A stretch of DNA of 34,978 nt. Origin: Ruminococcus sp. FC2018 (GTDB taxonomy: Bacteria; Bacillota; Clostridia; Oscillospirales; Ruminococcaceae). A model generated the notes under the pieces. The model had not been told where the DNA came from. It saw nothing but the letters and a program-made list of their open reading frames with translations, and ran no database searches. A program made the position numbers and the translations under genes. Where the stretch lies: positions 1 through 34,978 of the forward strand of contig NZ_JHXH01000020.1 in assembly GCF_000621805.1 (NCBI RefSeq), given 5' to 3'. Shown in pieces: positions 18,206 through 25,631 of the stretch; within the stretch, counting starts at the first letter, position 1, and every line of letters starts with the position of its first letter.

Positions 18206-18416
18206 TTGGGAAGGACCCTTTTGAAGAAAGGCCGAGAACGGCTTTGCCGTTCTCTCGGGAGTAACCGTGGTAACGGTTACTCCGTCCCATCAAACCCCAC
18301 CCCTAAAACTTTTATTGCTTTTTCGCCGTTCGGGTCTGCGACCCAAACAACGAAAAAGTAGTGAGAGTTCAGAGTAAGATATGAAGAGTGACTCTTTCAA
18401 GAGAGAACTCTCAACT
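18206..18416 (+). repeat. Long palindromic intergenic element, copy A (with two extra hairpins)
   Basis: This is one of four related elements. Shared parts are CCCTTTTGAAG near the 5' end, a 34-nt stretch (18291-18324) identical to copy C (25211-25244), and a 22-nt stretch (18351-18372) identical to copy C (25273-25294). The core is an inverted repeat around the triloop TGC at 18337-18339 (GGGTC and GACCC). The left arm carries two further perfect hairpins that copies B and C lack: a 9-bp stem at 18234-18254 and a 10-bp stem at 18259-18284. It lies between remB and gyrB and fills most of that 315-bp gap. Confidence 0.8.
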
Positions 18417-18516
18417 GCTCGTTGAAAATATTTCTGTATTCTTTCAACAATGCAGAACAAATAACTGAAATATAAACACATTTTATCATATCTATACCGA
18501 AACGGAGGATAAAAAA

Positions 18517-20469
18517 TTGGATAACAATTTGGAAAACATCTCACAGGTGGATAAGAGCAACAACTATGACGAAAATCAGATACAGGTGCTCGAAGGACTT
18601 GAAGCTGTGCGCAAAAGACCGGGTATGTATATCGGTTCCACCGGCGCAAGAGGACTTCATCACCTGGTTTACGAGATAGTTGACAACGCTATCGACGAGG
18701 CTCTTGCAGGCTACTGTACACAGATAGATGTTGAGATACTTGAAGGAAACATCATCAGAGTGACCGATAACGGACGTGGTATTCCTACGGGTATCCACCC
18801 GAAGGAGGGCATCTCTGCGGCTACGGTTGTCTACACTATACTGCACGCAGGCGGAAAGTTCGGCGGCGGCGGATATAAGGTAGCAGGCGGTCTTCACGGT
18901 GTCGGTGCGTCGGTAGTCAATGCCTTGTCGGAATATCTGGAGCTTACCGTTTACGACGGAAAGAATATCCACTTCCAGCACTTTGACAGAGGTCATTACA
19001 CCGAGCCTTTGAAGATAATTGGTGAAACGGATAAAACAGGTACTTCCGTTACCTTCAAAGCCGACCCGGAAATATTCCAGGAAACTACTGTCTACGATTA
19101 CGAGGTGCTTGAAAAAAGACTGCGTGAACAGGCTTTCCTCAACGGCGGTATAAAGATAGTCTTTACCGATAAGCGTGACCCGGAAAATATCAAGGGCGAA
19201 ACTCTCCACTATGAGGGCGGAATAAGGCAGTTTGTTGAGCATATCCACAAGACAAGAGGAGTTGAGGCACTGTCCGAGGAGGTCATCTACGTCAGCGGCA
19301 AAGAGGACGATATGTTCGCCGAGGTGGCACTTCAGTACAACGATACCTACAATGACCTTATCCTTTCCTTTGCAAACAATATCCATACTCCCGACGGCGG
19401 CTCACACGAAACAGGCTTCCGTGTGGCACTCACAAGAGTTATAAACGAGTACGGCAAAAAGTTCGGCTACCTCAAAGACGGCGACAAGCTGCTTGCCGAG
19501 GACGTCCGTGAGGGTCTGACAGCTATCGTTTCCGTCAAGCTGACAAACTGCGAGTTTGAGGGACAAACAAAGGGCAGACTGGGAAATCCCGAGGTAAGAC
19601 CTTTTGTTGACAAGCTGGTTACCGAAAAGCTGATGAACTACTTTGAGGAAAACCCGCCTGTTGCAAAGGCTATCTTTGACAAATCCGTTCAGGCGCAGAA
19701 GGCAAGAGAGGCTGCCAAGAAGGCAAGAGAGCTTACAAGGCGAAAAAGTGCCCTTGAATCCTCTTCCCTGCCTGGCAAGCTGGCGGACTGCTCGGAGCGT
19801 GACGCATCTATCACGGAAATATATATCGTCGAGGGAGATTCCGCAGGCGGCTCCGCAAAAGAGGGCAGAGACAGAAAGTTCCAGGCTATACTCCCCCTGT
19901 GGGGCAAGATGCTCAACGTTGAAAAAGCCCGCATTGACCGTGTTTACGGCAACGATAAGCTTTCCCCTGTGGTCACAGCCCTGGGAACGAGCATAGGCGA
20001 GGATTTCGACCTGAGCAAGCTGCGCTACGGCAAAGTAATAATAATGGCGGATGCCGATGTGGACGGTTCTCATATCAGAACTCTGCTGCTCACATTCTTC
20101 TTCAGATTCATGCGTCCGCTGATAGAGCACGGTCATGTTTATCTTGCACAGCCGCCGCTTTTCAAGGTGCAAAAGGGCAAGCAGTTCAGATATGCATACA
20201 CCGACGCACAGCGTGACAGATATATCGAAGAGTATTCCGCAAACGGCGGAAAGATCAATGTCCAGCGGTATAAAGGTCTTGGTGAAATGGACCCCATGCA
20301 GCTGTGGGAGACCACCATGGACCCTGAAACAAGAACGATGATAAGGGTGACCATGGAGGACGCAGTTAAAGCCGACGAGATATTCACTATCCTTATGGGC
20401 GATAAAGTCCAGCCGAGAAAAGAGTTTATCGAAAAGAACGCAGAGTACGCAAAAGAACTTGATGTATAA
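18517..20469 (+). CDS. gyrB: DNA gyrase subunit B
   Basis: The 650-residue ATPase subunit of gyrase introduces negative supercoils together with GyrA. The GHKL ATPase starts at [16 protein letters not shown]. The TOPRIM region has [18 protein letters not shown] and [13 protein letters not shown], and the C-terminal end carries [15 protein letters not shown]. The start is read as TTG 18517 because a strong GGAGG lies 8 nt upstream and no ATG fits. Only about 100 bp separate it from copy A of the palindromic element, so its promoter must lie in or just after that element. No clear -35/-10 pair was found. Confidence 0.97.
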
Positions 20470-20501
20470 TGATCAGATCTATCACAGCAGGCTGATGAAC
20501 T

Positions 20502-20667
20502 GCTGGGGAAAACCCTTTTGGAGAAGGGTTATTCCCCAGACCCCTTTCCTAAACCTCTTAATGATTTTTACAGTATGGGAAATAGATTCCCCATACTGTA
20601 AAAATGACTGAAAGTCTAAAAAAGAGCATGGAGAACAGCACTTCCAAGAGGATACTCTCAACATTTC
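20502..20667 (+). repeat. Long palindromic intergenic element, copy B
   Basis: The element begins with GGGGAAAACCCTTTTGGAG, continues with CCCC-rich sequence and CCTAAACCTCTTAATGA, and then a perfect 15-bp inverted repeat (20565-20579 with 20590-20604; TTTTTACAGTATGGG). The right arm (GACTGAAAGTCTAA, then ACTTCCAAGAGG) is an imperfect complement of the left arm. It is closest to copy D. The T run is on the outer 5' side and the A run on the 3' side, so it is not an intrinsic terminator on either strand. It occupies the gyrB downstream gap. Confidence 0.8.
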
Positions 20668-20760
20668 AGCAGCTTGTTGCAATAGATTTGAAAATCACAT
20701 ATCAGGTACTTTACATACACCACATTGTTTTCAAAAACAAGGAAAGGTCTATTAAATAAT

Positions 20761-24347: not shown

Positions 24348-24365
24348 CAAAAAGGGAGAAAAACC

Positions 24366-25148
24366 ATGACAACTATAAACGACATTTACAATCACATTAA
24401 CTCTATTGCCCCTTACAGCGCACAGGAAAGCTACGATAACAGCGGACTTTGCGTGGGCAATAAAAACCGTGAAGTAACAAATGTGCTTATCGCCCTGGAC
24501 GTAACAAAGGATATTATCCTTGAGGCAAAACAAAAAAATGCACAGCTTATCCTTACTCACCACCCTGTTATTTTCCATGCCCTGAAAGCTATCGACCCGG
24601 AAACTGTGGTGGGTATGCTGCTGGAAAACTCCGTGGCAGCCCTGTGCGCTCACACTAATTTTGACAGTGCGCTGATGAACGATATCCTGTGCAAAAAGCT
24701 GGAGCTTGCCCCGGTGGAACCGCTGTGCGAGGAAAACGGCGTGGCAATGGGCTGTGTGTGCGCCCTTGAAAAAGAGATGAGCGCAAAGGAGCTTGCAAAG
24801 CATATCCGCAGCTGCCTTGACAACACGGTGGTGCGCTACAACGACCTTGATAAGACCGGTATGTACCAAAGCAGAATGATAACCAGAGTTGCGGTGTGCT
24901 CCGGCAGCGGCGGAAGCCTGTGGCGGGACGCACTTTCAAAGGGCTGCGACGCACTTATAACAGGTGATGTGAAGCACGATGTATTCATTGACGCACAAAA
25001 CAGCGGTCTGAGCGTGTTTGATGCAGGGCATTTCCACACCGAGAATATCTTTTGCAGGTACATGAAAGAGGAGCTGTCAAAGCAGTTTCCCCGGGTGGAC
25101 TTTGAGGTGGCAGCCAACAACGTTGAGGTCGTGTCGTACAGATTGTAG
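24366..25148 (+). CDS. Nif3-like dinuclear metal-centre protein
   Basis: This 260-residue member of the Nif3/YqfO (DUF34) family forms toroidal hexamers with a two-metal site. The metal ligands are visible in LILTHHPVIFH, CAHTNFDSA and the C-terminal DAGHFHTENIF. Family members are often annotated as GTP cyclohydrolase I type 2, but the physiological role is not settled. It usually follows trmK; here the upstream gene is broken and its stop overlaps this start (ATGA). Confidence 0.93.
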   Translation: MTTINDIYNHINSIAPYSAQESYDNSGLCVGNKNREVTNVLIALDVTKDIILEAKQKNAQLILTHHPVIFHALKAIDPETVVGMLLENSVAALCAHTNFDSALMNDILCKKLELAPVEPLCEENGVAMGCVCALEKEMSAKELAKHIRSCLDNTVVRYNDLDKTGMYQSRMITRVAVCSGSGGSLWRDALSKGCDALITGDVKHDVFIDAQNSGLSVFDAGHFHTENIFCRYMKEELSKQFPRVDFEVAANNVEVVSYRL

Positions 25149-25177
25149 GAATTTATCATCATACGCATGGTGAATAC

Positions 25178-25336
25178 TGGGGAGGACCCTTTTGAAAAAG
25201 GGTCTCTCCCCAAACCCCACCCCTAAAACTTTTATTGCTTTTTCTGCACAAGATGTCTGCGACATCTTGCACCGAAAAAGTAGTGAGAGTTCAGGAGGAG
25301 AGATTAAGAGGAAACACTTTCAAGAGGTCACCTCAA
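25178..25336 (+). repeat. Long palindromic intergenic element, copy C
   Basis: The element starts with GGGGAGGACCCTTTTGAAAAA and has the 34-nt and 22-nt stretches identical to copy A. The core is a perfect 9-bp inverted repeat (CAAGATGTC) around the triloop TGC at 25258-25260. The arms continue as an imperfect inverted repeat to both ends: left CCCTTTTGAAAAAGGG opposite right CACTTTCAAGAGG. The axis is at the middle of the element, so the whole about 160 bp is one long hairpin. It follows the Nif3 gene by 30 bp. Confidence 0.82.
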
Positions 25337-25361
25337 TTATTTACCAAACATACGATGATAA

Positions 25362-25631
25362 TTCGGATTTACCACATTATCCTTGCATAGTAGTTGGGGA
25401 TATTCTCTTGGTGCTCTACCGGCAGGGACCTTCTGGAAGTATTGTTCTCCAATCTCTTTTCTTAGACTCTCAGTTATTTTTACATATCGGGCAGTATGCC
25501 CGATGTGTAAAAATCATTAAAAGTTTTAGGAAGGGGGCTTGGGGGATAACCCTTTTTCAAAAGGGTTTCCACCAATAAAGCACCAAAAGGGTTTCCCCCG
25601 ACTGCCACGCAGGGGTACTGCGGTAAATTCT
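25362..25631 (-). repeat. Long palindromic intergenic element, copy D (about 270 bp)
   Basis: Read on the minus strand, it has AACCCTTTTGAAAAAGGG, CCTAAAACTTTTAATGA and a core TTTTTACA...TGTAAAAA with loop AGTAT at 25493-25497, closest to copy B. The inverted repeat continues beyond the part shared with the others: 25362-25424 is about 70 % complementary (by eye) to 25569-25631, with differences mostly transitions. The axis of the core coincides with the centre of the whole 270 bp. It faces copy C and ends 30 bp before rqcH. Confidence 0.78.

Follow-up and report, generated by a model that had tools for sequence, protein, structure and literature searches.

The window considered here, 34,978 nucleotides (nt) of DNA from Ruminococcus sp. 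FC2018, is one entire contig (C19) of a 32-contig, 2.40-Mb genome. Four long palindromic elements, A to D, lie in its intergenic spacers, adjoining genes that Pfam assigns to a RemA-like protein (DUF370), gyrB, a NIF3-like protein, and NFACT, and one gene for a protein without assignment. Our results indicate that these elements probably belong to a family of non-autonomous mobile intergenic repeats of ~150 to 270 bp that resemble both repetitive extragenic palindromic (REP) doublets forming hairpins (REPINs) and miniature inverted-repeat transposable elements (MITEs), and that fold as a cloverleaf closed by an outer stem specific to each copy. A preliminary description, made from the letters of the sequence, had reported four separate elements, each a single long hairpin with shared arms and different cores, and had suggested selection on their shape as a MITE-like mobile element, a structured RNA, or a protein-bound cruciform.

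All four elements are present, and each, with short flanks, folds far better than dinucleotide shuffles (z of -7.74 for A, -6.68 for B, -7.82 for C, and -8.73 for D; 0 of 200 shuffles each). The layout consists of an outer stem P1, a hairpin P2-alpha, a stem P3, and a hairpin P2-beta, which together make a four-way junction. As described previously, the arms are common to the copies, the tips of P3 differ, D is inverted, and A and C share exact identical runs (34 bases at 18291/25211 and 22 at 18351/25273). A and B do stand alone, whereas C and D are parts of one composite at 25148-25635, with D nested in it. The intervals first given for A and B were real but too short; since the copy-specific P1 surrounds each of them, A spans ~18188-18434 and B ~20475-20690. 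The features are as follows, where R1 is a covariance model built from 20 copies of the same genome (alignment A1).

18188..18434, + strand: element A, standalone, with outer stem P1, between the RemA-like (DUF370) gene and gyrB
~18188-18207 (5') and ~18413-18434 (3'), + strand: arms of P1 of A
18205-18412, + strand: R1 match to A, 118.1 bits
18232..18258, + strand: optional hairpin P2b in the alpha arm of A, from sequence; present in some copies of the genome and missing from others
18258..18283, + strand: optional hairpin P2c in the alpha arm of A (GTAACCGTGGTAACGGTTAC)
18309..18367, + strand: stem P3 of A, base conserved and tip variable, from pair counts
20475..20690, + strand: element B, standalone, 3' of gyrB, with outer stem P1
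20502-20659, + strand: R1 match to B, 157.6 bits
20503..20539, + strand: P2-alpha hairpin of B, from fold and pair counts
20555..20614, + strand: stem P3 of B, from fold
25148..25635, no single strand: composite unit with C (+) and D (-) mutually inverted, flanked by TA at 25146-25147 and 25636-25637
25176..25335, + strand: element C, 5' half of the composite, R1 136.1 bits
25229..25289, + strand: stem P3 of C, from fold
25421..25576, - strand: element D, inner copy within the inverted half of the composite, R1 147.4 bits
25467..25523, - strand: stem P3 of D, from sequence and pair counts
25396..25411, - strand: beta-arm remnant of the outer copy enclosing D, from sequence
25583..25599, - strand: alpha-arm remnant of the same outer copy, from sequence

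A conserved four-way junction inside a copy-specific stem

Outside the clade of the window, both arms of the element are complete and their order is fixed: an alpha arm with ACCCTTTTGAAAAAGGGT and a beta arm with ACCTTTCTTCAGAAAGGT, mostly spaced by 105 to 109 or 156 to 164 bases. In the window's own clade the beta arm has drifted. Across genera, the arm sequences are nearly invariant. We assessed the fold in two alignments: A1, which took 20 of the 31 copies found in the window's genome (29 of them distinct), and A2, which holds 18 of 27 family elements and underlies a second model, R2, of the family form. In A1 (P2, P2a, and P3), 88.5% of cells were paired compared to 74.8% after shuffling, 24 pairs were altered on both sides compared to 15.3, and the covariation score was 0.395 compared to 0.161; none of 500 shuffles reached any of these values. 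The corresponding figures in A2 were 93.7% and 90.2% (0 of 500), 13 and 8.0 (2 of 500), and 0.182 and 0.110 (0 of 500). These shuffles leave the relatedness of the copies in place. Structures slid along either alignment scored lower.

The hairpins are conserved separately. When the local hairpins of the arms and an extended hairpin of arm with arm were both drawn by hand on A2, the local version paired 493 of 503 cells (98.0%) with 33 double changes, and the extended version paired 430 of 503 (85.5%) with 6. Given this better local pairing, each arm is maintained as a hairpin of its own and the whole is a four-way junction, so the single long hairpin proposed at first is not the conserved structure. 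An RNA pseudoknot between the P2-alpha loop and a 3' motif, entertained for the window clade, was dropped, since the two motifs are inverted-repeat arms whose local pairing is conserved.

The outer stem behaves differently from the arms. Among the window genome's copies, identity of the left arm of P1 is 0.40 compared to 0.34 after shuffling, while that of the alpha arm is 0.81. Nevertheless, the two sides of P1 match each other within a copy. In 24 of the 27 family elements (L097, L317, and L332 were left out), the cognate P1 had an energy of -41.2 kcal/mol compared to -16.3 kcal/mol for non-cognate partners, and in 15 copies of the window's genome the values were -26.5 and -14.2 kcal/mol (0 of 20,000 permutations in both cases). 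No non-cognate partner did better in 17 of the 24 and 11 of the 15 copies. P1 of A, by a narrow margin, and P1 of B were each beaten by none of 14 non-cognate arms. Taken together with the covariation in A1 and A2, this cognate pairing supports the suggestion that selection acts on the shape.

Loci L311, L316, and L330 had raised two possibilities: P1 could be a hairpin terminator into which the element had inserted, or it could be the flank copied in inverted orientation. The arms were not seen beside the gene in the nine g16 loci read (of 12 others) or in the other g113 loci (six found), and neighborhoods differ among the g16 and g113 ortholog loci read. At the window sites, both P1 arms are missing from the short spacers of relatives. 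Separately, at L316:1430-1690 (G043), a near-perfect outer stem of ~27 bp lies between two genes, each of which apparently has its own terminator.

Copies, composites, and proposed exchange of cores

The family is abundant and dispersed. BLAST searches of the window's genome returned 24 matches with C and 40 with B as the query. Outside the window, the 171-bp C query found copies that were 100% identical on contigs C24 and C14 and 99% identical on C10, beside different host genes. R1 gave at least 80 matches over both strands at 44 or more places, 4 of them weak (one tabulation of these places took in 37 of 44), and it matched 21 of 29 genomes of the genus. In the bacterial family, which we take to be Ruminococcaceae, it matched 24 of 247 genomes, spread over 15 of 126 genera. 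R2 found 4 of 391 genomes in a sample of the class at an E value of 1e-7, all 4 in the window genome's own family. Because only the best candidates were scored per genome (150 of 892 in the window's own genome, 103 in the genus, 12 in the family, and 6 in the class), copy numbers are lower bounds; in addition, the large family and class searches were run with stricter filters. One family-form copy, L095, had no match when queried against phage and plasmid records. Pattern scans matched 7 stretches of viral contigs and 107 stretches of genome contigs, and the Bacteroidota contigs among the latter are taken as chance matches. The family may also hamper assembly, given that several copies of the window's genome are found at contig ends or close to them.

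Some copies lie in larger units. Copies read out to their ends revealed that C and D together make up a single composite of ~490 bp with AAATCAGAATTT-type terminal repeats. Of the two repeats in the window, only the right one (25625-25636) is intact; the left one is degenerate. D is the inner copy between the two outer-copy remnants listed above, and a similar arrangement was read in the flanks of the copy on C12. Related composites occur elsewhere in the genome (C10, C24, C4, and C23), along with one cut by a contig end at C14. Across the fetched loci, there were 48 distinct AAATCAGAATTT pairs with at most one mismatch, some possibly due to chance or misjoining. TA stood at both ends in 32 of the 48 and TA with TG in 8, although the TA could belong to the terminal repeat itself, and the relatives compared are other species. 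In a set of 48 terminal-repeat pairs, 47 spanned 134 to 591 bp, and the remaining one, at 968 bp, is probably a chance pair. Composite interiors vary widely, and some carry other hairpins in place of the core. One host site shared by G000 and the related G017 combines similar flanks and terminal repeats with dissimilar interiors; counting the conserved flanks, 336 of 566 aligned columns are identical. Standalone copies have no common terminal repeat; their conserved part is internal.

Four loci (L270, L307, L283, and L167) contain units of 134 to 172 bp with the same terminal repeat and a different interior of GTGAATAGTGAATA-type inverted repeats. A second family of hairpin arrays, with CAGTCCACCGGACTG, also occurs inside composites, for example at L057 and L103, and its motif was found in 13 of 405 loci.

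Comparison of the window sites between species revealed both spacers that lack the element and elements with different P3 tips. At site A, five species (the window genome, G007, G021, G022, and G028) have the element in place, with P1 and arms alike and P3 tips different. In G015 and G020, the spacers at both A and B are short and lack the element (and, at B, the P1 arms), and G017 retains only a left remnant at A. At the composite's site between NIF3 and NFACT, spacers are short or compact in G017, G020, and G007; a same-sense copy is found in G022 and G028, a reversed one in G015, and a short remnant in G021. The gyrB spacer, site B, is filled in G017, G022, and G021 (L111, L113, and L116) by the CAGTCCACCGGACTG family.

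The P3 tips have matches elsewhere. Among the tips at site A, that of A itself agrees at 28 of 29 positions with a copy that its genome carries on contig C9. The G021 tip has 97% identity with copies elsewhere in its own assembly, on a different contig, and the same identity with L223 of another assembly. Among the fetched loci, the best other match of the G028 tip is in another assembly, and the G022 and G007 tips match only short pieces. Such matches within and between genomes suggest that tips circulate among copies.

Gene context and the question of an RNA

The placement of the elements relative to genes is far from even. Of 37 family-form copies scored (one of 38 was at an edge, and L317 and L332 had been excluded beforehand), 23 lie between convergent genes, 11 between co-directional genes, and 3 between divergent genes. 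Other adjacent gene pairs from the same loci were convergent in 4 of 48 cases, and in 2 of 18 when the gap was at least 60 bp (Fisher p of 0.0004 against the latter). With a laxer frame cut-off, 18 of 26 copies lay between convergent genes. Of the 19 copies in the window's genome that have a scored upstream gene but no terminal repeat close to the alpha side, 15 sit no more than 70 nt 3' of a gene in the same sense (binomial p of 0.019 for same sense; 14 of 18 without C); C and C24b are counted in this group though both belong to composites. Copies with the terminal repeat showed no same-sense bias (6 of 17).

Location at gene ends raises the question of whether the cloverleaf acts in mRNA, as a processing, stability, or termination signal in the 3' untranslated region that was spread by a MITE vehicle. 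Both the same-sense and the convergent placement would fit such a role, as would the base of P3 in the window clade (A1), where G-U pairs outnumber A-C pairs 49 to 12 and lean to the sense strand. This G-U excess, along with higher R1 scores on one strand, had made a sense-strand RNA a candidate. The full count does not bear this out: G-U and A-C on the sense strand were 59 and 56 in A1 and 20 and 53 in A2, and elsewhere G-U did not exceed A-C (9 and 16 in P2 of A1, 1 and 28 in the P3 tip of A1, and 13 and 46 in the P3 base of A2). Furthermore, folding is more stable on the opposite strand for each of A to D and for 20 of the 27 family copies. There is no terminator-like site on the sense strand of the window elements, and one on the other strand of A; a simple scan of 23 family copies placed such a site within the core in only 2. 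Rfam gave no match at the gathering score over the whole window, with 8 weak hits below gathering in 18150-25680. We therefore regard a transcribed 3' signal as unlikely, and a structured RNA acting from one strand, one of the original suggestions, is not clearly supported. Given the convergent-gene bias, a possible role at the ends of transcripts could be tested in culturable Ruminococcus.

The protein-bound cruciform suggested at the outset is possible. In one version, a protein of the nucleoid, of replication, or of recombination binds the cruciform or four-way junction, which is maintained for this purpose. This version is in keeping with the conserved four-way geometry, with arms that scarcely change from genus to genus, and with the lack of a clearly preferred RNA strand. 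Yet copy number and sites differ strongly among close species, and no match was found in 8 of 29 genus genomes (some of these are incomplete). Both points speak against a fixed, essential role, and this version is very improbable.

Probable mobility and relation to known repeats

Mobility is indicated by identical or nearly identical copies at separate sites, by terminal repeats with TA, and by spacers without the element in relatives. Together with the many copies, these observations favor the MITE-like option of the preliminary description. In the mechanism we propose, a transposase acting in trans would spread the element by recognizing its arm hairpins in DNA that is single-stranded or extruded; for composites, it could instead recognize the terminal repeat. 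Insertions would survive mainly at the 3' ends of genes, and cores would be exchanged between copies. The two sides of a stem may stay complementary through template switching at quasipalindromes combined with selection for the junction. According to PMC7202029, such template switching perfects inverted repeats in E. coli, and it would account for arms that diverge yet remain complementary.

A number of observations weigh against the reading of the family as non-autonomous mobile repeats. In the covariation analysis, further pair types in A2 went in the opposite direction (26 compared to 29.6 after shuffling, a value reached by 499 of 500 shuffles), and some non-cognate partner outdid the cognate P1 in 7 of 24 family copies and 4 of 15 copies of the window's genome. 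Because contigs C24 and C14 overlap at their ends, the two copies there may be a single one, and places at contig ends were perhaps counted twice. The convergent control was small (48 pairs), with several copies per genome and a simple frame caller. Element-free sites were compared between species, so deletion in the relative could explain them, and standalone copies yielded no clean target-site duplication. Conversion of P3 tips within a genome, which is not proved, is weakened by tips common to different genomes and by the little match of two tips out of five. Template switching would rest on literature and pattern, with no event observed.

The identity of the transposase bears on the same question. 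No partner was found in a genome-wide search that covered one family, Y1_Tnp, and this counts against our reading as well. An autonomous copy between the arms was rejected; the element is short, with no coding part found, and the seven open frames between well-separated arms are ordinary genes of the cell. Also rejected was a REP-associated tyrosine transposase (RAYT) as general partner, as Y1_Tnp does not track the element. Specifically, Y1_Tnp matches occur in 11 of 21 genus genomes that carry the element and in 3 of 8 that do not. The carriers G015 (at least 94 R1 matches over both strands), G020 (at least 78), G008 (at least 64), and G010 (at least 9) have none, while G004 has two Y1_Tnp and no element. 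Assembly gaps could conceal some Y1_Tnp genes.

These results bear on whether this is a true REPIN-RAYT system, in which the arms would be REP sequences moved by the genome's own RAYT. PMC3116915 describes REPINs as conserved inverted ends around a compensating spacer with a clover alternative, and of the known kinds of repeat the REPIN comes closest to our elements. Here too there are two conserved inverted ends, a variable spacer of nearly fixed length (two main lengths) with compensatory changes, clover and long-hairpin alternatives, and a dispersed, extragenic distribution at 3' ends. Compared with those REPINs, however, the ends are longer and contain full hairpins, with arms of ~55 bp and a copy-specific outer stem beyond; the alpha/beta pair is polar, composites with terminal repeats occur, and there is no tracking with RAYTs. 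Nor is the REPIN tag GTAG/GGAG constant, since right ends read by eye include CGATAA, CAGTAA, CAGCGG, and CAATAA besides CAGTAG. A true REPIN-RAYT system thus appears quite improbable. GTAG- and CGTC-tagged REPs, as described in PMC3733652, are palindromic, intergenic, and located between convergent or co-directional genes, as are our elements; those units are 20 to 40 bp and tagged, compared to ~150 to 270 bp without a fixed tag here.

Among bacterial MITEs with a TA target, similarities are found in short length, lack of detected coding capacity, TA terminal repeats on composites, many copies, and varied interiors. The standalone copies, which have an internal conserved part and no common terminal repeat, depart from that model. 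Correia, RUP, and ERIC are examples of bacterial MITEs. In BOX and other modular pneumococcal repeats, hairpin modules come and go, and P2b and P2c are alike in this respect.

The family resembles known bacterial repeats, fully fits none of them, and apparently has not been described. We found no earlier description in the open-license literature. The main text of one REP survey (PMC12306157) has no word starting with ruminococc, oscillospir, or clostridia, and two further REP surveys have none starting with ruminococc. A more radical possibility, which we consider doubtful, is a RAYT-independent mobile cloverleaf DNA. Its two hairpin arms would be inherited, P1 would be formed anew at each site, and the P3 tip would be swapped as a cassette; spread would occur by hairpin-templated copying rather than cut-and-paste, with a dedicated enzyme recognizing the four-way junction. 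For the mobile repeats that we favor, a P1 that differs from copy to copy yet matches itself, and P3 tips that are wholly different at a fixed site, call for either fast homogenization of the arms or a new route of transposition. More generally, our findings add to Ruminococcaceae a clearly delimited family of structured repeats that are interspersed in the genome.

Two smaller observations concern the window and its genome. P2b and P2c (18232-18283) are optional modules, and site A of G017 (L111) carries a different insertion with a related pair, inverted, inside it; GTAACCGTGGTAACGGTTAC of P2c is the sole match within the window at up to three mismatches, with 0 expected. In addition, short Y1_Tnp pieces stand at or beside contig ends of G000 (C3, C5, C12, C20, and C24), which suggests an IS200-type repeat that broke the assembly.

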